Notes under the pieces: model-generated
Database searches by the model: none
What the model saw: only the letters and a program-made list of their open reading frames with translations
Told to the model about the DNA's origin: nothing
Position numbers and translations under genes: made by a program
Part shown: positions 1-60,177 of the stretch, one piece after another
Numbering within the stretch: the first letter of the stretch is position 1
Layout: the number at the start of each line of letters is the position of its first letter
Assembly (NCBI GenBank): GCA_003148945.1
Contig: QGGY01000002.1
Location: 186,001 to 250,000, forward strand
Source: Murimonas intestini
Lineage (GTDB): Bacteria > Bacillota > Clostridia > Lachnospirales > Lachnospiraceae
Direction: 5' to 3'
Length of the DNA: 64,000 bases

Positions 1-215
1 GCCTTTCCATCAACTGTAGCTTTTAAGTCTAAATCATGGTATTTTAAATATTCTTCAATCTCCTTATCTGCCAGTGGAGAGATACGATGATTGATTTTAT
101 CAACTTTTTCCTGGATGATATCTACTGCTTCGACATGATTGTGCTGTGAGAGCAGGCATGCCAGAGATAAACCTACATAGCCTGTTCCTGCAACCGCTAT
201 TTTATATTGCTTCAT
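1..215 (-). CDS. ugd: UDP-glucose 6-dehydrogenase, N-terminal part
   Basis: Only the first 71 codons are in the window; the gene runs off the left edge. The protein begins [19 protein letters not shown], the glycine-rich Rossmann NAD-binding motif (GxGYVG) of UDP-glucose/GDP-mannose dehydrogenases. These enzymes oxidise UDP-glucose to UDP-glucuronate, a cytosolic precursor for polysaccharide synthesis. A GAGGAA ribosome site precedes the ATG. It lies 59 bp downstream of the sugar transferase gene in the same direction, so both probably share the invertible promoter further upstream. A related UDP-N-acetyl-sugar dehydrogenase cannot be excluded from the N-terminus alone. Confidence 0.85.
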
Positions 216-274
216 ATAAATTCCTCTTTTCATTTGCCATATCTGCTTCTTTACAGATTATTATTTAACATTTA

Positions 275-1717
275 TCACATCGCTCCATCGCCTTTTACCA
301 CGGCCCCTAAAGTCCTGATAAGGATTTTTATATCTTCACCTAATGTCCAATTTTGGATATATTCCATATCCAGCTGAACTACCTTTTCAAAATCAGTAAT
401 ACGGTTTCTGCCGCTTACCTGCCATAACCCTGTAATCCCGGGCTTAGTTGCCATCCTTGCACGATGATGGAAATCGTATTTATCCCATTCATCCACAGTA
501 GGAGGCCTGGTGCCTACCAGGCTCATCTCCCCCTTGAGTACATTCCAGAATTGTGGGAATTCATCAATAGAGGTCTTTCGTATAAACCAGCCCAGGCCAT
601 GCTTTGTGCCATCGGGGCCGCTTCCAATTATTCTTGGGTCAGCGTCAAGCTTAAACATATGTCCCTCAATCTGATTTTTTTCCATAAGCTCTCTTTTTCT
701 CTCCTCCGCATCCATATACATGCTCCTGAATTTATATATTCTGAATTTTTTACCGCCTTTTCCGATTCTATCCTGTGAAAAAAAGACAGGGCCGGGAGAC
801 GCCACATATATCATTGGGCCAAAAATGATAAGCATGATTCCTGTGAGAAGTGTACCAACCATGCCTCCGCAAATATCCATCAAGCGTTTAAGAAAAGCCT
901 GACGCGGAGTCGCTGCCCTGATACATGTAGTTATAACAGGATATCCGCATATCTTTTCCAGGATCTGCGTGTCATGCACATTCCCGGGAAAATTCAGACA
1001 GAAATGAACCGTCACCCCCATCTCTCCGCATATCCTTATTAGTTTGTCCGGATATTCTGTTTTATCTGAAATCTGTACCAGTACTTCATCTACCCAGTGG
1101 TTTTGAATATATTCCAGTATCTCTTCCTTACCCGAAGCTACTACAGGATAAACGCCTGCTGCCTTTATCTTGTTTTCTTCTTCTACTATCCCAATCCCTG
1201 TTATCCTCATAGACTTCCTGCAGCTTTTTTCCAAATGTTCAGCCATATCTGCAGCCAAATCCGATGATACAATGATGAGTACCGCACGTCCTCTGTCAAA
1301 ACCTCCGCCATATTTTTTCAGATAGCATTTCCATATACAGCGCATAGAGTATAAAAGGAGAAAGTAAAATAAGATAAAACAAAAAAAAGAGATGCGTGAA
1401 AAATCATCTGACTGTTTTGTTAAAAACAGGTACAGCCCTTCACAGGCAGTTACATATCCCACCTGGCCGGCTGTAGCCTTTAATTCTTTCAAATATCCTC
1501 TATTCAGGATACTTCTGTAATTTCCAGTCAAAAATATTACACAGACAGTAACAAGAAACAGGATTATAGACATCTCCCTGTAAAGATTTATATTATAGAT
1601 ACCTTTAAAACCAGACCTCACCATTACAGAGAGTGCAAATGATATTTCTACAATAATTAAATCCAGAACCATAAAATCTACATGTTTTAACCAGCTATTT
1701 GAAATTCTCCAATACAT
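275..1717 (-). CDS. Polyprenyl glycosylphosphotransferase (exopolysaccharide initiating sugar transferase)
   Basis: A 480-aa membrane protein of the bacterial sugar transferase family (WbaP/WcaJ type), which moves a sugar-1-phosphate from a UDP-sugar to undecaprenyl phosphate, the first step of capsule or exopolysaccharide repeat synthesis. The N-terminal third has several hydrophobic segments, then a Rossmann-like region (VLIIVSSD), then a hydrophobic hairpin near residue 300, and the catalytic C-terminus with the signatures SPGPVFFSQDRIGKGGK, YKFRSM, DEFPQFWNVLKGEMSLVGTRPP and KPGITGLWQVSGR. An ATG 60 nt upstream is in frame, but the start at 1717 has AAGGAG seven bases ahead, so it is preferred. 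The leader from the invertible promoter is about 290 nt and passes through three dyad repeats. Confidence 0.92.
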   Translation of the reverse strand: MYWRISNSWLKHVDFMVLDLIIVEISFALSVMVRSGFKGIYNINLYREMSIILFLVTVCVIFLTGNYRSILNRGYLKELKATAGQVGYVTACEGLYLFLTKQSDDFSRISFFCFILFYFLLLYSMRCIWKCYLKKYGGGFDRGRAVLIIVSSDLAADMAEHLEKSCRKSMRITGIGIVEEENKIKAAGVYPVVASGKEEILEYIQNHWVDEVLVQISDKTEYPDKLIRICGEMGVTVHFCLNFPGNVHDTQILEKICGYPVITTCIRAATPRQAFLKRLMDICGGMVGTLLTGIMLIIFGPMIYVASPGPVFFSQDRIGKGGKKFRIYKFRSMYMDAEERKRELMEKNQIEGHMFKLDADPRIIGSGPDGTKHGLGWFIRKTSIDEFPQFWNVLKGEMSLVGTRPPTVDEWDKYDFHHRARMATKPGITGLWQVSGRNRITDFEKVVQLDMEYIQNWTLGEDIKILIRTLGAVVKGDGAM

Positions 1718-1885
1718 AATACAGCTCCTTAGTTTACAGAAGATTAAATTATTTTCTTCCATATCGATCCCTGTCATTGCGTGCCAGCACTATCTGGGAA
1801 TGAAAATTTATGCTTCTGTTTTTAACAATGACGGCATGGATACATCCTATAAGCTGAATAAGAACTAAGCCTTCTCAATTGCCAC

Positions 1886-1974
1886 ACAACATAATAACAA
1901 TTATGTGTTTTCGCCTTGTATTACATAATAACAATTATGTGTTTTCGCCTTGTATTACATAATAACAATTATGT
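1886..1974 (+). repeat. Left arm of the invertible segment (three tandem recombination sites)
   Basis: An 89-bp arm containing three copies of the 18-bp imperfect dyad ACATAATAACAATTATGT at 1889-1906, 1923-1940 and 1957-1974, separated by the 16-bp spacer GTTTTCGCCTTGTATT. Each dyad has arms ACATAAT/ATTATGT around an asymmetric AACA core, as expected for a tyrosine recombinase core site. The arm is repeated in inverted orientation at 2257-2345. Confidence 0.9.
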
Positions 1975-2256
1975 AGTATTACATTGCAAAAACATATCTG
2001 CATTAAATGTATAATACTATTGCTGGAAAAAAATGTCAATAGAAAAAGGCTAAATTTCCCCCCTCATGTAGTTTTAGGTCAATTTTTTTGTTTTTTAACA
2101 TTAGTTGCACCAAATTTAAAAAATGTGCAGATATAAATTTTTAAATATAAATTGAAAGTACAGACAATTCTTTTTGAATTTTTGCAAAATTCTATTTTCT
2201 ATCTAATCTTTTTAATAGATATTACCCTCACTTTGGCATATAGAATATCAGCCACA
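1975..2256. other. Invertible DNA segment carrying the exopolysaccharide promoter
   Basis: 282 bp of AT-rich non-coding DNA lies between 89-bp inverted repeats and next to a tyrosine recombinase gene. The only strong sigma-A promoter seen in it points left, toward the sugar transferase and ugd, so the sequenced orientation is read as ON. Inversion would point the promoter at a fixed terminator on the right. No ORF of convincing quality is present. That it inverts is inferred from architecture. Confidence 0.8.
2011..2039 (-). promoter_or_regulatory. Sigma-A promoter inside the invertible segment, firing toward the sugar transferase
   Basis: On the minus strand TTGACA (2034-2039) and TATTAT (2011-2016) are separated by exactly 17 bp. 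The -35 is a perfect consensus and the -10 has one mismatch. The predicted start is near 2004. Inversion of the flanking segment would turn it away from the exopolysaccharide genes. Confidence 0.82.
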
Positions 2257-2345
2257 ACATAATTGTTATTATGTAATGCAAGGCGAAAACACATAATTGT
2301 TATTATGTAATGCAAGGCGAAAACACATAATTGTTATTATGTTGT
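2257..2345 (-). repeat. Right arm of the invertible segment (three inverted recombination sites)
   Basis: The reverse complement of the 1886-1974 arm over all 89 bp, with two differences, one in each spacer (TGCATT for TGTATT). Dyads lie at 2257-2274, 2291-2308 and 2325-2342, with a 34-bp period. The identity stops exactly at both ends, which is the signature of a recombinase-maintained inverted repeat. Confidence 0.9.
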
Positions 2346-2369
2346 ACAGGTAGAGATACCTGTTTTTTT
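2346..2369 (+). terminator. Intrinsic terminator just outside the invertible segment
   Basis: ACAGGTA-GAGA-TACCTGT forms a perfect 7-bp stem with a tetraloop, followed by seven T on the plus strand. It sits one base beyond the right repeat and outside the flipping DNA. It would stop rightward transcription in the OFF orientation before it enters the recombinase gene as antisense. Confidence 0.75.
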
Positions 2370-2419
2370 GTCCCTTTCTGCACTTCTCAATTCCTCCTTT
2401 CTGCATCAACATCCTTTAC

Positions 2420-3289
2420 TCAGCAGGGCACCTGCCCCAAATCAGATATTAATCCCAGCCCGTTTATAATTGCCTGGAACTGTGCCATAGTGTCTGCCGT
2501 GTATATCCTGGTGACTTCCAGACTGCTGTGCCCCAGAATATCTGCCAGTGCTGTCAGATTTTTTGTGGCATGATAAAAGGTACGTGCAAATAGATGACGT
2601 AAATTATGAGGGAAAACTTTTTTAGCATCCACACCTGTATCTTCAGACAATGATTTCATTTCCGCCCATATATTGCTGCGGTTTTTAGGATTTCCCTGTT
2701 TTGTTACAAATACCGGGCCTGAGTCAATCCGTTCTTTACCTGCAAAATAAAGCAGTTTTTTTACAAGCACGTCCGGAAGCAGGATGATCCTTGCCTTTCC
2801 TTTATTATTCACTTCAATTCTGCGCTTTTTCAGGCTTTCTATTGTTATATAACGAAGCTCTGATATCCTGATCCCTGTGGCACAAATCGATTCCATTATC
2901 AGGGCCAGCTGATGTTTTCCCTTCTTTTGCGCTGAATCTACCAGATTCCTGTATTCCTTATTCGTCATCTCTTTCTCAAGAAACATTTTTTTCTGTATCT
3001 TAAAGCTTTTAATTTTCATAACCGAGAGGCCCTGGAATTCTAAAAAACTGTTGAGCGCCGCTATCATTGAATTTGCACTGCTGACTGCATATCTTTCTTT
3101 CAGCCATTCTTTGTAATCCAGAAGTTTCCTTCTGTCTGCATCTGAATCTTCTCCAATAAATTTTAGAAATGTATTCATGTCCGTGAGATACTTTGATATA
3201 GTAGCTTCTGCCCGTTCCTGTTCGCGCAGGTAAGAAACGAATGCTTTCAGTTCATTATGTCCTACCCTGCATATCATTTTTTCATACAT
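2420..3289 (-). CDS. Tyrosine recombinase, predicted invertase of the adjacent promoter switch
   Basis: A 289-aa phage-integrase family protein. An N-terminal SAM-like core-binding domain (about residues 10-95) is followed by the catalytic domain with the conserved set: Arg in ATGIRISELR, Lys in NNKGKARIILLP, HxxR in HNLRHLF, His in LGHSSLEVTRIY and the nucleophile Tyr in RIYT. It is short, lacks an arm-binding domain, and has no excisionase nearby, which fits XerC/D-like invertases rather than phage or ICE integrases. The ATG at 3289 has GGAGG seven bases upstream. Its 3' end is 75 bp from the right inverted repeat, so a role in flipping that segment is the natural inference. Confidence 0.9.
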   Translation of the reverse strand: MYEKMICRVGHNELKAFVSYLREQERAEATISKYLTDMNTFLKFIGEDSDADRRKLLDYKEWLKERYAVSSANSMIAALNSFLEFQGLSVMKIKSFKIQKKMFLEKEMTNKEYRNLVDSAQKKGKHQLALIMESICATGIRISELRYITIESLKKRRIEVNNKGKARIILLPDVLVKKLLYFAGKERIDSGPVFVTKQGNPKNRSNIWAEMKSLSEDTGVDAKKVFPHNLRHLFARTFYHATKNLTALADILGHSSLEVTRIYTADTMAQFQAIINGLGLISDLGQVPC

Positions 3290-3317
3290 GTATTATCCTC
3301 CTTTTCCTCTGTCAAAT

Positions 3318-3346
3318 ATTATATTAAGCATATTTATTAATTGCAA
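3318..3346 (-). promoter_or_regulatory. Promoter of the recombinase gene
   Basis: TTGCAA (3341-3346) and TATAAT (3318-3323) on the minus strand, spaced 17 bp, lie 28 bp ahead of the recombinase start codon. It lies outside the invertible DNA, so recombinase expression should not depend on the switch orientation. Confidence 0.75.
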
Positions 3347-3411
3347 TGAGCAAACCTGTCCTGGAATATATTTCCAGAAGCAAAGGCTGTTATAAACAGA
3401 TTTCTGCAGAA

Positions 3412-3441
3412 TAAAAATGGATGCTGTTAAACACAGCATCC
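3412..3441 (-). terminator. Terminator after the HAD hydrolase gene
   Basis: The stem GGATGCTGT/ACAGCATCC (9 bp, 5-base loop) at 3419-3441 is followed on the minus strand by ATTTTTATT. It ends the leftward transcript of the HAD gene. Confidence 0.75.
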
Positions 3442-3469
3442 ACAGACATAAAACATTTACTTTATGATA

Positions 3470-4132
3470 TTAACCTATTCTCAATTCCTTCACCACTTCC
3501 CGGAGACTGCCAAACCTTCTCACACCCTCTATTTCTTTCCTGCCGTCCCTGTCCACCAGCCATGGCGTGATGCCTGCTGACATGGCACCTTTTACATCAC
3601 TTTCCAGGGAGTCTCCTATATGAACCACCTCTTCAGGCGCACAACCGCTTATCTTCAGGGCTTCCTGGAATATCCTCCTGTCAGGCTTATAGTACCCGGC
3701 CTTTTCACTTGTTATGATCCCGGCCGGATGGATCTTTAGCCGTTTTACAGCTTCCTCCAGATACTTGTCATCATTGTTGGATACAAGATAGATTGGAAGA
3801 GGACACTCCTCAAAGAATTCCTTTGTATCGTCAAATACAGGCGAATACTTCCAGTGCATCTCCAGGCCATGACAAAGTTCGTCCGCACTGTCTGTAAAGC
3901 CGTATTCCTCCATGATCCTTTCGAATGTCTCAACAGCAATGTCATGCTCCGGCTTGAAATCCCGGCCGCAATACTTTCCCAGAAGGCTGTCATGCAGCCT
4001 GAACCAGGCGGCCGCCACCTCTGACGGCGATTCAGTATGTGCCTGTTTATGGCATCTGTAGATCACTTCGTTTACGTACCTGCTCTCTTCTGAAACAATA
4101 GTTCCCATATAATCGATAAATACTGTTTTCAT
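3470..4132 (-). CDS. HAD-superfamily hydrolase
   Basis: A 220-aa cytosolic HAD protein. Motif I is FIDYMGT (nucleophile Asp7), motif II is YLVSNND, the motif III lysine is in YYKPDRRIF and motif IV is HIGDSLESDVKGA. A cap domain of about 60 residues follows motif I. The usual general acid two residues after the nucleophile (DxD) is Met here, so it departs from ordinary HAD phosphatases, and the substrate cannot be told. It follows the EFR1 ferredoxin gene by 8 bp and is probably cotranscribed with it. Confidence 0.85.
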   Translation of the reverse strand: MKTVFIDYMGTIVSEESRYVNEVIYRCHKQAHTESPSEVAAAWFRLHDSLLGKYCGRDFKPEHDIAVETFERIMEEYGFTDSADELCHGLEMHWKYSPVFDDTKEFFEECPLPIYLVSNNDDKYLEEAVKRLKIHPAGIITSEKAGYYKPDRRIFQEALKISGCAPEEVVHIGDSLESDVKGAMSAGITPWLVDRDGRKEIEGVRRFGSLREVVKELRIG

Positions 4133-4140
4133 TCTCTCTC

Positions 4141-4905
4141 CTAAAAAAATTCATTCTTTTTATGTCCTGAACATGCCTTCTTCAGCGACTGGGATGCAGC
4201 CGCAAGCATGATCTTATTCAGGGACCTGGCATGCTGCGGGCAGATACTGATACATCTCATACACGAGATACACTTCTTTGTATCTGTTTCACTGGGGTTC
4301 CCGGCGGGAATGGCCTGTGCCGGGCACCTTGACGCACAGAGGCCGCACTCAGTACACTTTTTTCTGTCAGCGGAGGGCTTCAGAGGCACACCTTTATACT
4401 CCCGGTACTCTGTATTTCCGGGAACCTCCACACTGACTGGCACTTCCATCTGTTCCAGACGCCTTCTGATCTCAGAACCAAACTTCTTCAGTTCCTCCTG
4501 ATCTGCCATATCCGGTCTGCCTGTCCCATACTGGTGCATGATAGAATGCTCAGTCACTGCCGCTGCTGCTGCCACGGCTATAAATCCCGCATCTTCCACT
4601 GTCTGCCTTAATTCCAGCAAAGTATCATCATATGCCCTGTTTCCATATGACACTATAAGAACAGCTGGTGTATGGCTGCCCCGCAGTTCTTTTATCCTCT
4701 GGACTGCCAGTTCCGGTACTCTTCCGCCATAGGAAGGCACTGCGAACATCACCAGTTCATCAGGCCCGAATTCTCTGCTGTGTGCCTCCACTGAAATATC
4801 TATCTCCTCTTTTTCCCATTCCAGGCCTTCCCCCAGTGCGTCAGCTGCCTTCTGTGTGCCTCCTGTCGGACTGAAAACTACCTTATTTAATTTTGTTATT
4901 TTCAT
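4141..4905 (-). CDS. EFR1 family ferredoxin (flavodoxin-like domain plus two 4Fe-4S clusters)
   Basis: A 254-aa protein with an N-terminal flavodoxin-like fold (VVFSPTGGTQKAADAL is the FMN phosphate loop) and two C-terminal 4Fe-4S motifs, CTECGLCASRCP and CISCMRCISICP, around residues 185-225. This architecture is the EFR1 family of clostridial electron carriers, presumably cytosolic; the partner is unknown. The ATG at 4905 follows AAGGAAGG. It overlaps the stop of the broken ArsR gene upstream (ATGA), so the pair was once a translationally coupled operon. Confidence 0.88.
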   Translation of the reverse strand: MKITKLNKVVFSPTGGTQKAADALGEGLEWEKEEIDISVEAHSREFGPDELVMFAVPSYGGRVPELAVQRIKELRGSHTPAVLIVSYGNRAYDDTLLELRQTVEDAGFIAVAAAAAVTEHSIMHQYGTGRPDMADQEELKKFGSEIRRRLEQMEVPVSVEVPGNTEYREYKGVPLKPSADRKKCTECGLCASRCPAQAIPAGNPSETDTKKCISCMRCISICPQHARSLNKIMLAAASQSLKKACSGHKKNEFF

Positions 4906-5185
4906 ATTTTCCTTCCTTTCTCATCTGCGGACCCCTCCGGGTTCTGCCTGCTCTGAAGCATCCTGCAGTTTTCCATGACTGTCTCCATCTTTTTAAACAG
5001 GGCTATCAATTCCTTCATTCTGACACTCCCTCCATCCAGATAGTAATAATTTTTCGTCCCGTCTTTTCTATCAATGTCAGGATAATGGACTGCCGTGTCT
5101 CGTCTCCTATGGCAGATAGCATATCACCGCAGCTCTTAAACTGCCCTGCAAATTTCTCCTTCTTTTCACAGTGCAAGCAATCCAT
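4902..5185 (-). pseudogene. ArsR-family regulator with the DNA-binding helix deleted
   Basis: From ATG 5185 the frame reads MDCLHCEKKEKFAGQ and then the ArsR-like GDETRQSIILTLIE, and stops after 56 codons. The end of an ArsR protein (YYYLDGGS, then MKELIALFKKMETVMENC) continues in another frame to a TGA that overlaps the ferredoxin start. The helix-turn-helix region normally between LTLIE and the YYYLDGG wing is absent, so the gene has an internal deletion with a frameshift. Loss of this repressor could leave the downstream ferredoxin and HAD genes constitutive. Confidence 0.7.
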
Positions 5186-5253
5186 TTCTGTTCCTCCGTC
5201 TTCTCCGGCCAGAGCCTTTCATCTGCCAGGGCGTGCTTGAAAAATGCTTTCCG

Positions 5254-5269
5254 TGTGATGAGCGTCACA
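5254..5269. promoter_or_regulatory. CRP/FNR-like palindrome in the divergent intergenic region
   Basis: TGTGATGAGCGTCACA is a perfect TGTGA-N6-TCACA dyad between the divergent ArsR pseudogene and the amidohydrolase gene. The rest of the gap 5186-5544 shows no gene and only weak promoter-like hexamers. Confidence 0.4.
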
Positions 5270-5544
5270 GTTTGTGGGAATGATTTTTCAAACAGGCTCC
5301 AGTACAATTATCATGGAGCGCCGGCTTTTATGGTTTATATTTTTCGACCATTACTTTACCATTATATTACAGTTGTTCTGCTCCGTCTATATTGGGAAAG
5401 AAAATCGAGACATAAGATGTTACGGCTCACTCAGTAATCAGCAGCTGTGGGAATTCACTTTCAGCAGGAATTATCATGAATCTGTCTCCTGATCCTGCTA
5501 AACTGTAGTCAAAGACGCCGCACCGGCAGACAGGAGAGATGAAA

Positions 5545-6678
5545 ATGCAGACAAATAAAACGATCCAGGCACACACTATTGAATTAAAAGGAAAAAGCTA
5601 TGATATCGGATATGCCCAGGGAATGGCTATCTCAGCCATACCTGCCATGAAGGAAATCCATACCGCAGGCTTTAAAGGATTTGATTCTGAAGAAGTAAAG
5701 AGGGCACAGTCACTATTTGGACGCTTCTGCCCCGGACTCAATGAAGAGCTGGCCGGATTTGCAGATGCTCTGAAAGCTGCGCCGGAGCAGATTGTATATT
5801 TTGCCATGACCTTCCTGCGGCCAAACTGCAGCCACATGGTGATCCATCCACAGATGACAGAAAATGGGCATATCCTGCTGGCCAGGAACTATGAGTTCAG
5901 CAATGAAGCAGAAGACTTCATTCTTGCCAGGACAAGTGTTGACGGAAAATATACCCATATAGGGACAAGCGTGCTGAATTTCGGCAGGGAGGACGGCTTT
6001 AATGAAGCAGGCCTGGCCATCACTATGAGTTCCTGCGGTTTTCCCGTCGGCGCTCCTGAATATATGCGCCGGCCTGCAATAGAGGGGCTGCAGTACTGGG
6101 CTGTCATCCGCACCCTTCTTGAAAACTGCCGGAATATAGATGAAGCTCTTGATATGGTCCGGGACATGCCTGTTGCCTACAACCTGAACCTGATCGCCGC
6201 TGACAAATCAGGCAGTGCCATCCTTATAGAAACTCTGGACGGACGCCTGGCATTTCACAGGCTGGATCCGGAGACAGAGAGATATCTCCATGCCACAAAC
6301 CACGCCGTGATCCCTGAGCTGGCTGCTCTGGAACCTGCTGTCATGGAACATTCCGCCGTCAGATATGACTATATTAAAAGGACGCTGGACGCTTCCGGAA
6401 AAATTTCTAAAGCTGCACTAAAGTCCATGCTTCTCTCAAATTATCCTGATGGTCTGTGCTGCCGCTATTATCAGGAATTTTTTGGAACTACAAAAAGCAT
6501 GGTAATTGACCCTGTTGATGGTATAATAGACTTATGCTGGGGCGGCAGCGCCGGAAATGGCTGGAATTCATATTCCATGTCAGATCCTTTTGAGGAAGGC
6601 GTACACCCCGTAACTATCACGAATGAAAAGGCAGCTCCGTCTGTCTTTCAGTACATTACACACAGGAGTACATTGTGA
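5545..6678 (+). CDS. C45-type Ntn hydrolase (acyltransferase/amidohydrolase family)
   Basis: A 377-aa protein of the C45 / linear amide C-N hydrolase superfamily, whose members become active by cutting before a cysteine that turns into the N-terminal nucleophile. The likely site is Asn-Cys in FLRPNCSHM, followed by the typical LLARNYEFS and GREDGFNEAGLAITMS signatures. Substrates in the family are acylated amides such as penicillins, bile salts or acyl-amino acids; none can be assigned here. An ATG at 5539 is too close to AGGAG, so the ATG at 5545 (eight bases away) is preferred. Its stop overlaps the start of the AraC gene, so they form one operon. Confidence 0.82.
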   Translation: MQTNKTIQAHTIELKGKSYDIGYAQGMAISAIPAMKEIHTAGFKGFDSEEVKRAQSLFGRFCPGLNEELAGFADALKAAPEQIVYFAMTFLRPNCSHMVIHPQMTENGHILLARNYEFSNEAEDFILARTSVDGKYTHIGTSVLNFGREDGFNEAGLAITMSSCGFPVGAPEYMRRPAIEGLQYWAVIRTLLENCRNIDEALDMVRDMPVAYNLNLIAADKSGSAILIETLDGRLAFHRLDPETERYLHATNHAVIPELAALEPAVMEHSAVRYDYIKRTLDASGKISKAALKSMLLSNYPDGLCCRYYQEFFGTTKSMVIDPVDGIIDLCWGGSAGNGWNSYSMSDPFEEGVHPVTITNEKAAPSVFQYITHRSTL

Positions 6679-9135: not shown

Positions 9136-11850
9136 TCACTCCTTGTCAAAATCTGTGTACCCCAGCCTCACATCTTCCATATGCCTGGCCATGTCTTCCG
9201 GCAGATTCTCAAATAAATAATTCTTGCTGCTCTTCTGCTTTTCCAGATATTCGCTGCGGATCTCTTTTCTGACCAGCTCTACCTCATCCTTCAGACCCTG
9301 GGCCGACATCCTGTCAGCGCCCTGTCCCAGTATGATGACCTGCTCTAAAGCATCAGAAGTAGCCACTGTAACATGATGCTTCCTTCCAATCTCGTGCACA
9401 GCCTTTTCGATGTACTGGTCAGCAGTCTCCGCCTCTTTCGTGTAGACAACAAATATATTGTGGTACTTCTGGACATCTCCCTTATTTCCCGGCACTTTGT
9501 AAGCATCAAACACCAGGATAAGGGTCATCTTCTTAAATCCCTGATAATTACAAAGGACATCCATAAGCTTATTTCTGGCGCCCTCAATATTCACTTCTGC
9601 CAGCTCCCGCAGATCTTCCCAGGCAAAAATAATATTATATCCGTCCACCAGAAGATATTCCTCTGATCTTTCTCTGGTTTTGGGTCTGTGGACAGCGCTG
9701 CTCTGGATATTCTCAGCCGCTCTTCTCCCCGCTGTCCCTCCCCGGTTAAACCGGTTGCGCTCCCTCTTTACAGGCCCGTATGTTCTCTCGAATATCTCTT
9801 CCAGCTCCTTTGGGTCTGCCCATCTGTCCTGATTCTCTGTATCCCTTCTTTCCCTGATCTGCTGCACCTCTTCTTCACGCTGTCTCATGATATCATTCTT
9901 TAAAACACTCTCAAGGTGCATATAATCACGCACCTTGTCCCAGCTGACTACAAACCCTGCCCCGCGGGCGCAGAATACAGACCCTGTAGGATTCTCCAGA
10001 TCTTTCTCAGAATCGTAACCTGCCGCCTCTATTACCTCTTCTGCATTATGGCAGGGCTCATACCCCGCCAGAGAACAGGATAATCTTCCTCTGCCGCTCG
10101 TATATGCAGTGACCTCCCTCTGGTAGCCCTGCATTCTTTCTGCTGGCGCCCTGCCGGTGATGACAGTCATCTCCCCATCTATCTGAGGATTCTTAAAACT
10201 TCCGTACATCTTCTGGATGTCTGAAATTGCCCTCCCCATTTTGTCTGAAGGCACTTCCAGCCTGAATTCATACACTGGCTCCAGCAGGATGCACTTCCCC
10301 ATCTTCAGTCCCTGACGCACCGCTCTGTAGGTAGCCTGACGGAAATCCCCGCCTTCAGTATGCTTCAGATGGGATCTGCCTGTCAGCAGAGTGATCCGCA
10401 TATCTGTGATCTCCGCCCCTGTCAGCACCCCCGGATGGCGTTTCTCTTCCAGATGGGTGAGTACCAGCCTCTGCCAGTTCCCGTCCAGGATATCTTCACT
10501 GCAGGCAGTGGCAAACTGCAGGCCGCTGCCTGCCTCCAGAGGTTCCAGCAGCAGATGCACCTCCGCATAATGGCGCAGCGGTTCAAAATGTCCCACACCC
10601 TCCACCGGTTCCAGTATGGTCTCTTTATACACAATACTTCCTGAGCCAAATTCAACCTTTACCCCAAACCGCTCCTGTATCATGCTCTTGAGGATCTCTA
10701 TCTGCACCTCCCCCATCACCTGGGCATGTATCTCCTGAAGCTGCTCATTCCACACAATATGGAGCTGCGGCTCTTCTTCCTCCAGCTGGCACAGCTTCAA
10801 AAACATACCATGTACATCACAGTCTTCAGGAAGCTGGATCTGATATGTCAGGACAGGCTCCAGGACGGGAAGCTCAGATGCCTCCTCAATTCCAATCCCC
10901 TCCCCTGAAAACGTACTATCCAGCCCCGTAACCGCACAGATCGTCCCCGCAGGAGCCTCTTTCACAGACCGGAATGAGGCGCCTGAATAAATACGTATCT
11001 GATCAGCCTTCTCCTCCCTGCTGCCTGAAAGCTGCATCTTTACCTTCAGGGCTCCCCCTGTTATCTTCATATGGGTAAGCCTGTTTCCCTGGGCATCCCT
11101 GGATATTTTATATATTTTTGCGCCAAATTCCTCCTGATACACACTGCTGCCTGTATACTTATCAAGCCCCTGAAGAAATTCTTCTACCCCCTCCACCTTC
11201 AGGGCAGAGCCAAAATAACACGGAAATACTTTCCTTGCGCGGATCAATTCCACTGTCTCTTCCCTGCTGATGCTGCCCTTTTCCAGATATGCCTCCAGCG
11301 CTTTCTCATCGCACATGGCCAGGTTTTCCATAAAGCTTTCATCTGAATCATCTGCTCCGAACTCCACGCATCTCTCGTCCAGCCGCACTTTCAATTCATC
11401 CAGCAGCTTTTCCCGGACACAGCCGGGCTGATCCATTTTATTAATAAATAAAAATACAGGGATGCTGTAACGCCGGAGCAGCCTCCACAGCGTTTCCACA
11501 TGTCCCTGCACTCCATCTGCCCCGCTGATGACAAGCACTGCATAATCAAGGACCTGCAGTGTCCTTTCCATTTCGGCAGAAAAATCCACATGTCCCGGAG
11601 TATCCAGCAGGGTCACTGACTTCTCCCCCAGAACTGCCTCAGCCTGCTTTGAAAAAATAGTGATCCCTCTGGATCTCTCCAGCTCATATGTGTCCAGAAA
11701 GGCATTTCCATGATCTACCCTGCCCGGCTTCCTTATCTCTCCCCGCAGATAGAGGATACTCTCGGCCAGAGTAGTCTTCCCTGCGTCCACATGGGCCAGA
11801 ATGCCTATTACTAATTTATTTGTATGGATTAATCTCTTTATCTGTGTCAT
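9136..11850 (-). CDS. TetM-like ribosome-protection GTPase fused to a Rae1/YacP-like NYN endoribonuclease
   Basis: A 904-aa protein. Residues 1-640 resemble EF-G/Tet(M) ribosome-protection factors: GILAHVDAGKTTL (P-loop), RGITIF (switch I), DTPGHVDF (switch II), NKMDQ (guanine specificity) and the downstream EF-G domains. A charged linker leads to residues about 728-895, a close match to the YacP/Rae1 nuclease fold (YLLVDGYNIIFAW, LILVFDAYKVPG, AETADQYIEKAV, HVTVATSD, GQGADRMSA). Rae1 of B. subtilis cuts mRNA in the ribosomal A site. Here both ribosome-A-site activities share one chain. A GTG 81 nt upstream is in frame but overlaps the -10 element, so ATG 11850 is chosen; no clear ribosome site precedes it. 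Confidence 0.88.
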   Translation of the reverse strand: MTQIKRLIHTNKLVIGILAHVDAGKTTLAESILYLRGEIRKPGRVDHGNAFLDTYELERSRGITIFSKQAEAVLGEKSVTLLDTPGHVDFSAEMERTLQVLDYAVLVISGADGVQGHVETLWRLLRRYSIPVFLFINKMDQPGCVREKLLDELKVRLDERCVEFGADDSDESFMENLAMCDEKALEAYLEKGSISREETVELIRARKVFPCYFGSALKVEGVEEFLQGLDKYTGSSVYQEEFGAKIYKISRDAQGNRLTHMKITGGALKVKMQLSGSREEKADQIRIYSGASFRSVKEAPAGTICAVTGLDSTFSGEGIGIEEASELPVLEPVLTYQIQLPEDCDVHGMFLKLCQLEEEEPQLHIVWNEQLQEIHAQVMGEVQIEILKSMIQERFGVKVEFGSGSIVYKETILEPVEGVGHFEPLRHYAEVHLLLEPLEAGSGLQFATACSEDILDGNWQRLVLTHLEEKRHPGVLTGAEITDMRITLLTGRSHLKHTEGGDFRQATYRAVRQGLKMGKCILLEPVYEFRLEVPSDKMGRAISDIQKMYGSFKNPQIDGEMTVITGRAPAERMQGYQREVTAYTSGRGRLSCSLAGYEPCHNAEEVIEAAGYDSEKDLENPTGSVFCARGAGFVVSWDKVRDYMHLESVLKNDIMRQREEEVQQIRERRDTENQDRWADPKELEEIFERTYGPVKRERNRFNRGGTAGRRAAENIQSSAVHRPKTRERSEEYLLVDGYNIIFAWEDLRELAEVNIEGARNKLMDVLCNYQGFKKMTLILVFDAYKVPGNKGDVQKYHNIFVVYTKEAETADQYIEKAVHEIGRKHHVTVATSDALEQVIILGQGADRMSAQGLKDEVELVRKEIRSEYLEKQKSSKNYLFENLPEDMARHMEDVRLGYTDFDKE

Positions 11851-11931
11851 TTTATCTGTAGTCCAATCATTCTTTTTATGCAACTGTGCACTGCCGCCGC
11901 AATTGCCGCTTCGCAATATAGTGTCTATCAC

Positions 11932-14855: not shown

Positions 14856-15326
14856 CTACTTTTCCTCCTTCAGAGGCAATTCAATCTCAACAGCATGATC
14901 CAGAAATACCACCCCATCCAGATGTTCCAGCTCATGGCAGAAGCACTTTGCCATAATCCCCTCCCTCGTTATGAGGACTTCTTCCCCCCTTTCGTTCAGC
15001 GCACTGACTGTGACCGTCTGGGGTCTGACTGTCTTTCCCATCTTTCCCGGAAAGCTTAAGCATGCCTCTATACACTCCTGCTCCCCGCTGCTTTCTACTA
15101 TCCTGGGATTCACCAGTTTCAGGCAGTATTCCCCATAATCTACCACAACCAGCCGCTTTAATATCCCCACCTGATTAGCAGCCAATGCCGCCCCATTTTC
15201 AGTATCATGGAGAGTATCCATCATGTCATCCAGAAGTTCCAGGACATGGTCATCTATGGTTTCTACTTCCTTACATCTTTTCCTCAACATCTTATCGTCA
15301 AACAGACGAATCTTTCTTACTGCCAT
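14856..15326 (-). CDS. def: Peptide deformylase
   Basis: A 156-aa metalloenzyme removing the formyl group from nascent protein N-termini. The three motifs are present but slightly divergent: GAALAANQVG (motif 1, usually GxGLAAxQ), EACLSFPG (motif 2, with the metal Cys) and CHELEHLDG (motif 3, HExxH). Upstream in-frame ATGs exist, but ATG 15326 has AGGAGG seven bases ahead and gives normal family length. The start lies inside the end of the XRE regulator gene, so it is translationally coupled to it. Confidence 0.92.
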   Translation of the reverse strand: MAVRKIRLFDDKMLRKRCKEVETIDDHVLELLDDMMDTLHDTENGAALAANQVGILKRLVVVDYGEYCLKLVNPRIVESSGEQECIEACLSFPGKMGKTVRPQTVTVSALNERGEEVLITREGIMAKCFCHELEHLDGVVFLDHAVEIELPLKEEK

Positions 15327-15561
15327 CTTTTTCCCTCCTGCTGCTGTCAGCCCTTGATTTTCTTTCACTTTCCTCAAATAAAAAAACTTCTTCAATGGTA
15401 CATTCAAATATACGTGAAATATCATAGGCCAGCCAGATGGAAGGCTCACACTTCTCTGTCTCAATAGCATTTATGGCCTGCCTGGATGCTCCAACCAGCT
15501 CTCCAAGATTTTCCTGGGTCATCCCCCGTTTCTCTCTCAGTTCTCTGACTCTGTTCCTCAT
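15298..15561 (-). CDS. XRE-family helix-turn-helix regulator
   Basis: An 87-aa protein, almost wholly one HTH domain (RELREKRGMTQENLGELVGASRQAINAIE, then PSIWLAYDISRIFECTIEEVF), like the small Cro/YgzD regulators, with a basic hydrophilic tail. It overlaps def by 29 nt and shares its transcript. Two near-identical dyads flank its promoter, which suggests autorepression. Confidence 0.88.
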   Translation of the reverse strand: MRNRVRELREKRGMTQENLGELVGASRQAINAIETEKCEPSIWLAYDISRIFECTIEEVFLFEESERKSRADSSRREKDGSKKDSSV

Positions 15562-15573
15562 ATTTCCCCCTTT

Positions 15574-15630
15574 GTAATGTTAACCTTACATATATTATAT
15601 ACTGTGGTGTGTGTAATGTCAACCTTACAT
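15574..15630 (-). promoter_or_regulatory. Promoter with paired operators of the XRE-def operon
   Basis: TTGACA (15617-15622) and TATAAT (15594-15599) are spaced 17 bp on the minus strand. The 18-bp boxes GTAATGTTAACCTTACAT (15574-15591) and GTAATGTCAACCTTACAT (15613-15630), each an imperfect palindrome, cover the -35 and the region just downstream of the -10. Their starts are 39 bp apart. They are the obvious binding sites for the XRE protein encoded downstream. Confidence 0.78.
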
Positions 15631-15679
15631 TAAAATCAGTCCTTTACAAACTGCCCTGCAAAATGGTTATATGATATAA

Positions 15680-15738
15680 AAACCCTTGAAAACGTTGCAT
15701 TTTCAAGGGTTTGGGTAATTCTCTTATAAAGTTTCTTA
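15680..15738 (+). repeat. 59-bp direct repeat, left copy (probable att site)
   Basis: Matches 19481-19539 at 57 of 59 positions in the same orientation. The repeat contains a hairpin (AAACCCTTGAAAA...TTTTCAAGGGTTT), probably the rpsI terminator, followed by TAATTCTCTTATAAAGTTTCTTA. It marks the junction between chromosome on the left and the mobile region on the right. Confidence 0.75.
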
Positions 15739-15757
15739 TATTATGTATTATGAAATT

Positions 15758-16561
15758 TCAAAACATATGCTCTTCGATTGAGCCGTCTTCTTTTACATCC
15801 ATGAAGCACTCTGAAAATTCATCACTATCCATAATCATTAAAACGCGATGCATTCCGACAGCTAGTTCCTTCTGTTCATATTCTTCTCGTGGAATCCAGT
15901 AAACTCTGCCCTCTTCCGAGCTTTTCAATTCTCCTTCAAATTGATCTGCCCGGTAAAGATATCCAACGTTATGGAATCCGTCCCGATACCAGTGATAGAT
16001 TCCTTTCAACACAGGATTCTTGATGCGCAGGCCGGTCTCTTCCAATATTTCACGCACAACGGCATCATGAAATGTTTACCTAGTCTCTACATGTCCGCCT
16101 GGAAACGTTGTTCCGGTATAAGTGTTATTTACCTTATCCAGTGCAAGCACTTCGTTTCCACGGCAGACCATGCACATGTTCATGAAAATCACAGTATCTG
16201 GCGGATGCTTACGAAGAGTATCCTCCTTCTGAATTCGTTCGCAGATCTTCGCACGTTTGCCCTGGTATCTTGACGCAATCTCCCCATATGGTATCCAAAT
16301 ATCAGCGGCTTCAATATGATCATAAACTGCTGCAATCACAGCATCATCTGTCTTAGCAGTTGGAAATTCACCTGTCTGTTCGTGAAACTTTCTAGTCTCC
16401 TCATACATCCATTGTGCAATCTTATCTTTCTGCTTCTGTTTAAGCTGGTTATAACTCTTGGTAGTCTGGAGAAGCTTGCCTCCCACTTTTATATGATTTT
16501 TCATCTTTATATTATTCGCCGCTCCTTTTTTGCCATTCACATACAATCGGATTCCAATCAC
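15758..16561 (-). pseudogene. Nudix hydrolase gene interrupted by a nonsense codon
   Basis: One reading frame spans the region with a single TAA at about 16078-16080. It falls inside the Nudix box: FPGGHVETR-stop-TFHDAVVREILEETGL, where the family has Glu-rich residues. Upstream are about 130 residues of unrecognised sequence rich in lysine (QLKQKQKDKIAQWMYEETRKF) and the start of the Nudix fold (VIFMNMCMVCRGNEVLALDKV). A single G-to-T change (GAA to TAA) would explain the break. Without readthrough the catalytic REILEE helix is lost. The gap 16562-16729 holds no supported gene. Confidence 0.72.
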
Positions 16562-48039: not shown

Positions 48040-51000
48040 TTATCGCACCTCCTCATGCTGTTTTGGTTTCTTGTCTGTACTGCGGGGCAGCACCGGGCGT
48101 TTCAGGCTGTCCAGCACCGAAGGCCGTGTGCTTTTGGCAACAACAGCTTCAGCGTGTGCCGGTCCCTTTCCGTCGATGTTGAGCAGGGTATCCAGCTCTA
48201 CCAGACGGGCGTTTTTGCTTCTCAGTTCTTCTTCATAAAGGAATGGCTTTCCGACTTCCTCCTTTGCGGCAGCCTGCTGCTGACAGAGGTTATCCAGCTG
48301 TGCCTTTGCTGCCTCCAGACGCTGCGGCATCTGGGCGAGGGCATTGTCGATACGGGTAAGATTTCCGCGGGGGTCTGTACCAAGGGTTGCCCTGTGGGTC
48401 ATCTGCCCTTTTAGCAGGAGCGTATATTCCTGTTTCCATGCGGAAAATTCCACGGACATGGCATAACCCCGATAGCTGCCGATCTGCACCGGATCAGAGG
48501 TTTTGACCTCCTTGCAGGCATCCAAAAGGGCTGCACCGGCGTTCTCCTTATCGGTCAGCAGGTCTCCACGGATCTCCATACCGGAAAAGCCGTCCTCCGG
48601 GTGCGGGTGAGCCGCCAAAACCTCTAGGTCAGATTCAAAGCCCTTGATAAAGCCCTTGTGCTTTTCAATCTCCTCCGGAAAGTATTTGAGCAGTTGGTCC
48701 TCCAGACGATACTGCTTGCTCTGGTGGTCGGCTTTCATCAGCTTCAGGCGGGATACCTCCACATCCAAATCCATACGCTCTTTGATACGGGGGTCTCCGG
48801 CACACAGAGCCTTGATCTCGGCAAAGGAAAGCGCTGTTTCATCCACATCTTCGCAGGAGCGCACCGGCGATTTAGAAGTCATGATCTGGGAAATGAATTT
48901 CTGCTTATTCTCCACCGTCTGCCAGAGGTATGCGTCAAAGGTTCCTTCGGTCACATAGCGGTACACATGGACAAGGGGATTCTGGTTGCCTTGGCGCTCG
49001 ATACGGCCCTTGCGCTGGGCGAGGTCTCCGGGTCTCCACGGACAATCCAGATCATGAAGTGCCACCAGACGGTCCTGCACATTGGTGCCTGCGCCCATCT
49101 TGGCAGTGCTGCCCATAAGTACACGCACCTGACCGGTACGAACTTTGGAGAACAGCTCCTTTTTCCGCACTTCGGTATTGGCTTCATGGATAAAAGCGAT
49201 CTGGTCGGCAGGCATCCCCTGGACAATGAGTTTCTGACGAATATCGTCATATACCGTAAATGCCGGTTCCTGCTCCGGCAGAGGCACAGCGCCTTCCAAT
49301 GCGTGAAGCAGTGGATTATCCAGTGTTTTCGCCGCCTTGCTTGCAGGAGCTTTTGCCTGTGGTGTAGAAATGTCGCAAAACACCAGCTGGGTCAGCTTGT
49401 CAGCTTCGCCATCCCGCCAGATCTGCATGATGTTCTCTACGCATTGATTGACCTTTGTGCCGGGTTCGTCCGGCAGCATCTGGTTGACGATCCTCTGGTC
49501 CAGCCCCAGCTTGCGGCCATCCGAGGTAATCTTGAGCATATTGTCTTGAGACGGATCAACGGTTCCGCTGTGTACCAGCGATGCGCGCTCCGAAAGGGCC
49601 TTGACCATTTCCTGCTGATGTTCGGTAGGCTGCGCCACGATGTTGTGGTATTCCACCTCCGGGGTAGGCAGATTCAGCTGGTCGGCAGTCTTAATGTCAG
49701 CCACTTCTTTGAACAGGTTCATCAGCTCTGGGAGGTTGAAGAACTTACTGAATCTCGTTCTTGCCCGGTAGCCGGTGCCTTCCGGTGCCAGCTCCAATGC
49801 TGTGACGGTCTCCCCAAATCGGGAAGCCCAGCAGTCGAAGTGGGTCATGTTCAGTTCTTGCAGGCGTTCATACTGAAGGTAACGCTGCATGGTGTAAAGC
49901 TCGGTCATGGAGTTGCTGACCGGGGTGCCGGTGGCAAAAATCACGCCACGGTTTCCGGTGATCTCATCCATATAGCGGCACTTGGCAAACATATCGGAGG
50001 ATTTCTGCGCGTCCGATGTGGAAAGACCAGCCACATTCCGCATTTTTGTGTATAGAAACAGGTTTTTATAGTTGTGGGCCTCGTCCACGAACAATCGGTC
50101 TACACCCAGCTGCTCGAAGGTTACCACATCGTCTTTTCGCCCCTCTGCTTGCAGCTTTTCCAGTCTGGCTTCCAGAGACTTTCTGGTACGCTCCAGCTGC
50201 TTGACGGTAAAACGCTCACCGCCGCTGGCCTGCACCTCTGCGATCCCCTCGGTGATCTCGTCGATCTGCTCATAGAGAAGCCTTTCCTGACGCTCCCGGC
50301 TGATGGGGATACGCTCAAACTGGCTGTGTCCCATGATGATGGCGTCGTAGTCCCCGGTAGCGATACGGGCGCAGAACTTTTTTCGGTTATGGGTTTCAAA
50401 GTCCTTTTTGGTGGTGACTAAGATGTTGGCAGAAGGATAGAGACGCAGAAACTCCGACGCCCACTGCTCGGTCAGGTGGTTTGGAACCACAAAAAGGGAT
50501 TTCTGGCACAAACCCAGGCGTTTGGCTTCCATAGCAGCGGCCACCATCTCAAAGGTTTTGCCCGCGCCTACTTCGTGTGCCAGCAGAGTATTACCGCCAT
50601 ACAGCACATGGGCGATGGCGCTTTTCTGGTGTTCCCGCAGGGTAATGGCCGGGTTCATGCCGCCAAAAGTGATATGGCTGCCATCATACTCACGGGGACG
50701 GGTAGAGTTCATTTCTTCGTTGTACTGGCGCACCAAAGTCTGGCGGCGCTCCGGGTCTCTCCAGATCCAGTCCCTAAAGGCTTCCCTGATAGCTTGCTGT
50801 TTTTGAGCAGCCAGGGTGGTCTCCTTGGCGTTCAGCACGCGGCGCTCTTTTCCGTCTGCGTCCTCTATGGTGTCATAGATACGGACATCCCGCAGGTTTA
50901 AGGAATCCTCCAGAATCTTGTAGGCGTTGGCGCGGCTGGTCCCGTAGGTGGTGTAGGCTGCCACATCATTGTAAGATACGGAAGATTTCCCCTTGATCTG

Positions 51001-54000
51001 CCATTCAGCGGTAAAGGACGAATAGTTGACCTCGATACTGCGCTGGAGATAAAACGGAGTGTTGAAGGTCTCATACATAAACTGTTGGATATATTCCTTG
51101 TCGATCCAGGTAGCACCCAAACGCACCTCGATCTCCGACGCATCCAGGTCCTTGGGCTGGGCGGCGGTAAGAGCTTCCACATTGACTGCATAAACCGGGT
51201 CCTGCTGTGCCGCCCGCTGCGCCTGACGCAGTTTGCGGCGTACATTGCCGGAAAGGTATTCATCGGCGGTCACATAATGGGGCGATCCGTCCTGCTCCAG
51301 CTGTCCCGGTACACGGAAGATCACGCCTTGCAGTTCTCCGGCCAGTTCTTCTTTTGTTTTTCCGGTAAGCTGGCTCATATAGCCCATATCCACGCAGGCT
51401 TTTTCCGAGATGGACACCGCCAGCGCTTCACTTGCCGTATCCACCACAGCCACCGCCTGATGGGGCTTGATGGTCCGTTTGGTGAACATATCCGCCTTGC
51501 GCTCCAGCTTTCCGTCCTCGTCGATGACTTCCAGCGCACAGAGCAGGTAATAGGAAGAATCGTCTGCATATGCCAGACGGTTTGCACGGTCATTGATGAG
51601 ACCGTATTTGGCAGAAAAGCTGTCATAGAGGCTGTTCAGTTCCGCCTGCTTCTCCCGAATGGTGCTGTCCGGAACCGCTGCATCCATCTGAAGGTCGATC
51701 AGTTCCTGCACACAATCACGCAGTCCCACAAGACCTTTCACGCGGGCTTCTGCGGTGGCGTTGAGGTCAGGGCGCACCATACGGCTGTTTTCCCGGTAGT
51801 ACACCTGCCCGTCTACAATGGCATAGGAATAGTTCTTCACATTGGGGTCGGCAGGAATGGAGGTGTCAATAGCTTCGCCTTCGCCCAGCTCCGGCAGCTC
51901 TGCCTCCTGATAAGTGCCATGAATATACTTCACCGCATCATGCAGCTGGTCGGAAAGCTCCAGTCCCTCGATAGGGTTCACGGTGTAGTCCATACCATGA
52001 GCGGTGCTTACCGGCTCCTGTCTGCCCAGCACCATTTCCGGGTGGTCGATAAAATACCGGTTGATGGCAAACCCGTCCTCCGTCTGTCCGGTCTGGGTCC
52101 ATTCCGGCACAATGTCCAGCGGGCGATCCCGCTTTTGGAGGAAGATGATGTCCGATACCACCTCGGCACCGGCATTCTTTTTGAACGCGTCATTAGGCAG
52201 ACGGATAGCTCCCAGCAGCTCGGCACGCTGGGCAAGATAGCGGCGCACGGTAGAATCCTTGGCGTCCATGGTATAGCGGGAAGTCACAAAAGCCACCACA
52301 CCGCCGGGACGCACCTGGTCCAGTGCTTTGGCGAAAAAGTAGTTGTGAATACTAAAGTTCAGCTTGTTGTAGGCTTTGTCGTTGACCTGATACTGACCGA
52401 AAGGTACATTGCCGATGGCAAGGTCAAAGAAGTCACGCCTGTCGGTGGTCTCAAAGCCGCCTACTGTGATGTCCGCCTTGGGATAGAGCTGCTTTGCGAT
52501 GTGCCCGGAAACCGGGTCCAGCTCCACGCCGTACAGACGGCTGTTTCGCATTTCCTCCGGCAGCATACCGAAGAAATTGCCCACACCCATAGATGGCTCC
52601 AGAATATTTCCGGTCTCAAATCCCATACGGCCCACCGCTTCATAGATGGCCTGAATGACCGTAGGGCTGGTGTAATGGGCGTTGAGGGTGGAGCTTCTGG
52701 CGGCGACATATTCCTCCGGGGTCAGCAGCTCTTTCAGCTGGGCATACTCGGAAGCCCATGCCGGTTTCTCCGGGTCAAAGGCATCAGAAAGACCGCCCCA
52801 GCCCACATAGCGGGATAGGACTTCCTGTTGTTCCGGGCTTGCCTGCTGTCCGGCAGCTTCCAACTCTTTCAGCAAACGAATGGCATTGATATTTGCCTGG
52901 AACTTGGCTTTCGGACCGCCTTCGCCCAAATGCTCATCGGTAATACGGAAGTTTTGTGCATTGCGGCGCAGGTTGGCCTTGTATTCCTCATAGGAGGCTT
53001 CCTCGGCAGCTTTGGCATTGGGGAAGGTCTGCCACTGGCCATTGACCTGAATGGAAACCGGGTGTTCGTCCAGCACTTCCTCAAAGGTTTTCTCCGGCTC
53101 AGTCACAGGGGCTGGCGGCACCGGCTCCTCGATATGCAGCCGTTCCACCACCACATCATAAGGCAGATTGTTCTTGTCTCCCGGATAGACGGCCACGGTC
53201 TCGGAGTGGAAGACCGGGAATTTGACAGACGGTTGGGGCTGTTCCTGTCCAAAGCCATCCAGCTGACGGGCATACATCCCGCGCAGCAAAGGCGCAACTT
53301 CATCCCAACGGAAATACAGCACAGCCAGACGCTTTTCCTCTGCGTCCAGGACTTCCAGCTCCATGCCCTGTGCCGTGGTACGGTAATCGGCAATATCGCC
53401 GGTCTCCAGATTCAGGGTCTCGATCTCACCGGAATAGGCTCTGCTCAGCCAGTAGGCAATCTCACTGTTGCTCCTGCCGGATTGCAGCAGCGTGGAAACC
53501 TGTTTTTTATCTGCTTCATCCATCAGTCCATGGGACAATACATCCCGCAAGTCCTGATCTGCCTTGTCCGGGTCAATGGGAAGAAACTCGGTATAGTAAG
53601 CATTGCGGCGGTCTGCCCGAAGCAACTGCTCGAACTGTTCTTTACGCTCTGCCCGGTAGATGGGATATACCATACCGGCGGGCAGAAGCTGTACGGTGTC
53701 CTCCCGCAGCTCGGTGATCTGATAGGCGTCATCCTCGATATACACGGTATCGCCCACGGCATAAACCGGGGCGGCAGGGTCATAGGAAGTCCTTTGCGGA
53801 ATTGGACTGCGAACGGCATCATATTCCTCATCGGAAATGGAAATCGCGGAAGTCTGCTCTGCCTCGGCAGCTGCGATCTGCTCTGCATCTGACATCACCT
53901 GTTGGATAAATGGGTCATTGTCCAGTTTTTCCGGGTCTGCCACCTGTCCGTTGACGATGCCCCTTTCCTCCAGGGCTTCCCGGATGGCGATGGGGTCGAT

Positions 54001-56823: not shown

Positions 56824-56900
56824 GGTGTTCTGTCCTCCTTTCGGTTTTGGGGTAAAAGGTGGAGCGGCAAATTGCCACCCCATCCCTGCGGTTATGCTGT

Positions 56901-57116
56901 TTACTGGTCAAAATCCGGGTACAACTCCAGCTGGGCAAAGTCCTCATCGGTCATCGCACAGAGCTTCGTAAGGGCACTGTCGGTCAGCTCCCTCAGTTCC
57001 GTTTCCTCCGGCGAAAGCTCGCCGCGCATTTCACGCAGGCTGTCGATCAGCCCGGTGCGGCTACCGGTATTGTAAATGCACATCAGGTTCATTTCCTCAA
57101 AAGTAAAGTTTCCCAT
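56901..57116 (-). CDS. Transposon-transfer assisting protein (TTRAP family)
   Basis: A 71-aa acidic protein, MGNFTFEEMNLMCIYNTGSR at the start, then LIDSLREMRGELSPEETELRELTDSALTKL, the TTRAP family pattern of conjugative transposons. ATG 57116 follows GGGAG and overlaps the stop of the preceding primase-like gene. The family name implies a role in transfer, but the mechanism is not known. Confidence 0.82.
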   Translation of the reverse strand: MGNFTFEEMNLMCIYNTGSRTGLIDSLREMRGELSPEETELRELTDSALTKLCAMTDEDFAQLELYPDFDQ

Positions 57117-57117
57117 A

Positions 57118-60171: not shown

Positions 60172-60177
60172 GTGCCA

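Follow-up and report, generated by a model that had tools for sequence, protein, structure and literature searches.

The window, a stretch of 64,000 nucleotides of Murimonas intestini DNA, carries at its beginning the first genes of a predicted polysaccharide cluster, an intergenic segment between long inverted repeats, and a tyrosine recombinase gene. The features of this region are as follows.

1..233, minus strand: 5' part of a UDP-glucose/GDP-mannose dehydrogenase gene (ugd-like), second gene of the cluster (UDPG_MGDP_dh domains)
275..1717, minus strand, open reading frame to 1777: EPS sugar transferase, first gene of the cluster (Bac_transf, 4.4e-59; TIGR03025)
1718..2004, minus strand: predicted leader of the ON transcript, through the left array (promoter position; presumed start)
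1886..1974, plus strand: left arm, three sites in tandem at a 34-bp step (repeat and site search)
1889..1906, plus strand: crossover-type site 1, ACATAA-TAACAA-TTATGT (site search; motif common to the family)
1923..1940, plus strand: crossover-type site 2 (site search)
1957..1974, plus strand: crossover-type site 3 (site search)
1975..2256, no strand: predicted invertible segment, 282 bp (repeat search)
2011..2039, minus strand: sigma-A-type promoter TTGACA-17-TATTAT, facing the cluster, predicted ON (consensus match)
2257..2345, minus strand: right arm, three sites in tandem, inverted (repeat and site search)
2257..2274, minus strand: crossover-type site 4 (site search)
2291..2308, minus strand: crossover-type site 5 (site search)
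2325..2342, minus strand: crossover-type site 6 (site search)
2346..2369, plus strand: terminator-like hairpin and T-run, predicted stop for the flipped promoter (fold; recurs in some relatives)
2420..3289, minus strand: tyrosine recombinase, predicted invertase of the switch (Phage_integrase, 1.5e-24; alignment A1; family layout)
3318..3346, minus strand: promoter-like TTGCAA-17-TATAAT, possible recombinase promoter (consensus match only)

In agreement with a first-pass annotation, which had described 89-bp inverted repeats with a 282-bp segment between them, the repeat search places the arms at 1886-1974 and 2257-2345. By strict extension they are 89 nt long each, with 87 of 89 positions paired and two mismatches, and 282 nt separate them; a repeat finder stretches them to 1886-1977 and 2254-2345 (92 nt, 97%). 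The arms therefore flank a short intergenic segment, as the repeats of an inverton do. Absent from that annotation was the tandem make-up of the arms, each of which repeats ACATAATAACAATTATGT three times at a step of 34 bp. The 18-bp site ACATAA-TAACAA-TTATGT occurs in six exact copies in the whole window, three per arm and in opposite orientation, and a search allowing two mismatches has an expectation of 0.00 chance matches in the window. The 18-mers are nearly palindromic, and 34 bp amount to about three helical turns. A 16-bp block between the sites is present in both arms in inverted form and is identical at 15 of 16 positions. The one base separating the left from the right blocks was considered as an indicator of register and dropped as a weak hint. 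One 27-base pattern for the site gave 0 matches in viral contigs.

The recombinase reading frame (2420-3289, minus strand) lies 74 nt from the right arm, practically at the 75 bp reported before, and its Phage_integrase domain (E 1.5e-24) contains the conserved Arg, Lys, His, Arg, His and Tyr. The corresponding R141, K163/K165, H228, R231, H254 and Y263, which we take to be the catalytic residues, are invariant in the nine sequences of alignment A1. By score the protein does not group with XerC or XerD, as it falls short of the cut-off in each of the listed Xer models (106 versus 335 bits for TIGR02224, 103 versus 330 for TIGR02225, 147 versus 220 for the XerA model). Its top named model is nevertheless of the XerA type and its top solved chain an XerC-like recombinase. 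Exactly this protein is listed on 93 contigs, and in a scan of named genomes the top match was found in Blautia parvula (60%).

The sugar transferase scores 349.5 bits with TIGR03025, against a cut-off of 295.55, so the identity given to it earlier stands. For its start, the ATG at 1717 is a better candidate than 1777, because an AAGGAG at 1725-1730 precedes this codon by 7 nt. The ugd-like gene continues past the window edge (window -1020 to 233, or 14980-16233 of the adjoining piece L051). Of the 15 minus-strand reading frames that follow the sugar transferase in L051, which covers 16 kb past the edge, 10 were scanned. They include the UDP-sugar dehydrogenase, four further glycosyltransferases, a Wzy-like protein (under the Pfam cut-off), a hexapeptide-repeat protein, a Polysacc_synt flippase and a glycyl-radical-type protein, plus one without a family. 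Judged by strand and spacing, the sugar transferase and the genes behind it would form one operon.

Crossover-type sites beside related recombinases

When one genome per species was scanned with alignment A1, which holds nine recombinases, at least 575 stretches encoding relatives came up. The best 80 were taken, chosen by similarity of the recombinase and not by their sites; with 25 fetched loci, the window's own included, and minus one duplicate (L078), 104 loci were examined. A protein search yielded 7,084 proteins at E <= 1e-60 among 7,994 candidates scored.

Exact-arm sites (CATAA-N6-TTATG) were counted within 800 nt 3' of the recombinase gene. Two or more were present in 46 of the 104 loci, and in 45 of these 46 the sites are inverted with identical N6; one locus has a direct pair and none has unlike N6. 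The direct pair belongs to L122, whose contig stops 123 nt after the stop codon. Upstream of the gene, no exact-arm site was found in up to 800 nt in any of the 104 loci (97 with the full 800 nt). The exact pattern skips variant arms, e.g. ACAGAA or ACATTC, which are caught by a free inverted-repeat search. This search, run without a shuffle control, detected inverted pairs on the 3' side of the gene in 71 of the 78 loci with a 1,100-nt flank, the pair in L108 not being site-like, and no inverted pair in 7 of the 78. Three related recombinases of one genome (G029; L068, L072 and L074) accompany segments of 466-469 nt and sites of the ACATTC-N6-GAATGT type; this genome has 21 recombinase matches.

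The six central bases are the same within a locus and vary between loci, and for this reason they are probably the region of strand exchange. The N6 of these sites behaves in the same manner as the exchanged centre of a tyrosine-recombinase site. With a centre specific to each locus, the question of which recombinase acts on which switch becomes testable.

The first downstream reading frame is collinear in 60 of 72 loci. A Pfam tally of these downstream genes, made for 58 of the 60 (L072 and L123 omitted), is scattered, with Flg_new (5), SLH (4) and DUF7601 (4) as the largest counts and three each of GGDEF, Peptidase_S26, SpaA, BTAD, Flg_new_2, Phage_integrase and TetR_N. Hence, the tally is by itself no proof of a surface theme.

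Orientation of the segment and its flanking signals

The promoter TTGACA-17-TATTAT at 2039-2011 has the top score among 21 promoter-like sites in 1-6000, where shuffles give 15.0 +/- 3.8. That it faces the sugar transferase and ugd, as had been claimed, is borne out as a sequence match, and it is by this consensus match that the segment holds a promoter aimed at a neighbouring gene. From its direction, the sequenced state is predicted to be ON. Given the gene start at 1717, the predicted leader would be ~287 nt long; the stretch 1718..2004 folds with a z of -2.5, and a search of 1-6000 against Rfam up to E 0.5 matched no known RNA element. A second promoter-like sequence, ATGACA-18-AATAAT (10/12), is found at 1777-1748 on the minus strand, beyond the segment and shortly ahead of the likely start at 1717. 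It could drive the operon in either orientation, which would amount to fixed expression.

Among 75 loci, and without a shuffle control, the predicted promoter faces the operon in 18 and the recombinase in 32, with 25 weak or ambiguous cases. Inversion is also visible between orthologous segments. In two Mediterraneibacter MAGs (L080 and L086) the flanks are collinear over 968 nt on the recombinase side and 956 nt on the downstream side, while the segment is inverted (identity 0.70 inverted versus 0.60 direct). In three single-contig genomes of the Blautia type, L206 and L208 have the switch in one orientation and L207 has it in the opposite one; inverted identities of L207 to the other two are 0.75 and 0.78, direct ones 0.64 and 0.64. 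No promoter-like match was found in the switch of L206-L208, the cleanest case of inversion. Three further inverted pairs (L113/L117, L129/L146, L133/L134) are weak, with identities of 0.64-0.66, and the orthologous sets L200-L202 and L204-L205 show a single orientation only. Contig ends within 250 nt of the recombinase match are found in 12 of 80 loci on the 3' side, where the switch lies, versus 1 of 80 on the 5' side. This is as expected if the coexistence of both orientations interrupts assemblies at the switch, and other causes are possible as well.

The comparison bears on whether the arrays are sites of recombination at all. They might instead be operators, with three phased palindromes per side binding a transcription factor and the recombinase acting elsewhere. 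Near-palindromic 18-mers at a step of about three helical turns would suit such a role, and spacings of neighbouring sites in 21 loci lean to a 10.5-bp period (Rayleigh p ~0.016), a value not relied on here as the 21 spacings are partly related and not all independent. An operator, however, does not need a locus-specific six-base centre common to both arms, and the exact-arm sites in the 104 loci lie 3' of recombinase genes, with none in up to 800 nt upstream, as centre-matched inverted pairs. We consider operator function very unlikely; as the main reading it is rejected in view of the ties of the sites to recombinases together with the inversion of segments between relatives.

The centre-matched inverted pairs, the occurrence of both promoter directions and the inverted orthologous segments of the relatives lend support to the inverton proposed in the first-pass annotation. 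We regard as highly probable (roughly 0.88) the prediction of a phase-variable promoter switch at this locus: the recombinase would flip the 282-bp segment at ACATAA-N6-TTATGT and so likely toggle the predicted polysaccharide operon. By cutting and rejoining the DNA at the paired inverted sites, the neighbouring tyrosine recombinase would turn the segment round, and the operon would likely be set on (the sequenced state) or off. The comparison supports a recombinase-driven promoter switch well; we infer that the recombinase acts on these sites, that the segment flips in this strain and that the promoter works. The module of a recombinase, an inverted ACATAA-N6-TTATGT pair, a promoter segment and a downstream operon can be read from Clostridia assemblies.

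Both orientations were seen between related species, while this species is represented by one genome in one orientation. The single orientation would equally be expected of a relic, i.e. a switch that formerly inverted and is now locked ON. Such a loss of function appears very unlikely, since the six sites do not differ from one another, the recombinase has an uninterrupted reading frame with the residues that do not vary among nine family members, and 93 contigs list exactly the same protein. Owing to this number of contigs, existing raw reads may settle whether the switch still inverts.

Directly outside the right arm, where a terminator at 2346-2369 had been claimed, a terminator-like hairpin is indeed present. 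Its stem at 2346-2363 (7 pairs, -8.8 kcal/mol, z -2.5) is followed by a T-run; in 1-6000, 5 terminator-like sites were found against 4.6 expected. It would absorb transcription from the flipped promoter. For the relatives, loci were split by the gap between stop codon and site into those with at least 20 nt (n=22) and those with less (n=53). With the longer gap, a hairpin facing the flipped promoter is present in 8 of 22 loci, the window's included, and none faces the other way, with 0.65 expected from shuffles. With the shorter gap, a terminator-like hairpin occurs in 1 of 53 loci (0.95 expected). These figures follow a strict, shuffle-controlled rule; a looser one gave an antisense-facing hairpin in 12 of 75 loci. 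The earlier proposal that a fixed terminator protects the recombinase gene from the flipped promoter thus gains support in a minority of loci.

Sites shared within the genome and tandem sites

Elsewhere in the same genome, on contig C13, one inverted pair of the identical 18-mer lies beside a recombinase of 53% identity. This switch (L052, 7753-8084) is predicted to be OFF, as its best promoter-like match faces the recombinase (11.5 versus 10 the other way), and its collinear gene is a 1,053-aa reading frame with a cadherin-like domain. A third locus, on contig C10, has another centre, TTCTCA. The fact that the window and C13 sites share the centre TAACAA raises the question of whether the C13 paralogue, or both enzymes, works the switch in the window, the two loci then being a pair. 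Sharing of a centre is uncommon within a genome, with 2 of 46 pairs (this pair included) versus 21 of 3357 between genomes, which favours such control in trans. In the loci examined, however, the enzyme sits beside its own sites, and both loci here have their own. We therefore see trans control as possible but rather improbable, and continue with the adjacent recombinase as the predicted invertase.

The locus is most probably an inverton, and as such of a known kind; what is unusual is its array of sites. Neighbouring exact-arm sites were found in 5 of 397 family genomes and 10 of 391 class genomes, scans that have at least 12 genomes in common and both count the window's genome; the family matches in G309 and G408 are not direct pairs sharing one centre. 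Three sites in a row were seen only in the window, in both scans and in the 104-locus survey. Among the loci surveyed, single pairs of sites are usual, some relatives have two sites in one arm and one in the other (2+1), and 3+3 is confined to the window. Of 23 multi-site loci examined besides the window, 16 are complete, three (L122, L160, L169) are cut off ahead of the second arm, and in four (L162, L164, L175, L178) the available stretch does not include a recombinase; the two sites of L162 form a close inverted pair and those of L164 have unlike centres. All 16 complete loci are 2+1, with the doubled arm next to the recombinase in 11 and on the far side in 5 (L126 and L171, being near-identical, do not count as independent).

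In a few relatives the doubled arm and its inter-site block align in inverted form to a doubled arm on the opposite side: L116/L174 (80% over 74 nt), L170/L177 (83% over 54 nt) and, more weakly, L176/L177 (72% over 78 nt). The recombinase ends are collinear in L116/L174 and L170/L177, and the downstream side aligns in L170/L177 and L176/L177, not in L116/L174. Inversion at the outermost sites would place the doubled arm on opposite sides in just this way.

In the window, any left site could pair with any right site. Exchange in register would preserve 3+3, and exchange out of register would shift 34-bp units between the arms, the total staying six. With sites counted from outside, exchange of left site i with right site j would turn a+b into [i+(b-j)] + [j+(a-i)], by which 3+3 could become anything from 1+5 to 5+1. 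The 16-bp block common to both arms fits a past exchange between them, which gene conversion would explain too. Recombination within one molecule between sites only 34 bp apart is an unlikely route to deletion, as a circle of this size is too stiff. The six-site array might hence be a switch with a counter, in which flips reset the number of palindromic units in the ON leader as a graded setting on top of ON and OFF; as the second locus has the same site, two surface loci would share one site address. We put this forward tentatively and think it improbable. In any case, the array lends itself naturally to testing whether additional crossover sites alter the flipping rate or move between arms.

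Comparison with described systems

E. coli fimS (FimB/FimE) has one site per arm, and differs from the window switch in its two recombinases and its other sites. It is alike in that a promoter lies on an invertible segment, of 314 bp in fimS, inverted by a tyrosine integrase to control a surface structure, as outlined in the part of the source used (PMC9993118). The Xer/dif system shares palindromic arms around a six-base centre, and the window recombinase best matches an XerA-type model and an XerC-like chain. It differs in that this recombinase scores under all listed Xer cut-offs, and its sites are inverted pairs beside the gene, whereas dif is present once per chromosome; the TTATGT of the window sites presumably resembles dif. 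The canonical centre of dif is given as six bases in the section consulted (PMC3025954).

In the hCom2 gut community, inverton group 139 (32 of 33 in Clostridia) is linked to tyrosine recombinases of invertase group 35, and two of its examples, from Clostridium sp. D5 and Intestinimonas, shift orientation between passages in the reads, according to the excerpted report (PMC11892184). The likeness lies in Clostridia invertons near tyrosine-type recombinases, with repeats whose starts are separated by 231 and 241 bp, distances that fall among those of the window's relatives; by the two coordinate sets given, the repeats measure 26 and 14 bp versus the 89-bp triple array here (PMC11892184).

The Cdi switches and RecV of C. 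difficile, as covered in the portions of two sources drawn on, likewise combine short inverted repeats, a tyrosine recombinase of the XerC/D type and surface targets, and Cdi2 and Cdi5 share identical repeats, like the window and C13 loci (PMC5903667, PMC2784873). The cwpV switch has 21-bp inverted repeats 195 bp apart and differs in that its promoter lies outside the segment and a terminator in the OFF leader does the switching; RecV differs in that one recombinase inverts several switches (same portions; PMC5903667, PMC2784873). Searches of the open-licence PubMed Central literature gave no report of tandem crossover sites in an invertible promoter.

Two regions elsewhere in the window, both on the minus strand, hold genes of other kinds. 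At 9136-11931, an EF-G-like GTPase (GTP_EFTU, EFG_IV, EFG_C) is fused to a YacP-like NYN domain. The region 48040-62612 encodes a 2,947-aa protein with an SNF2-related domain, a topoisomerase and a protein with LPD28, LPD16, YodL and ArdC-N domains, genes which we presume to be cargo of an integrated conjugative element.
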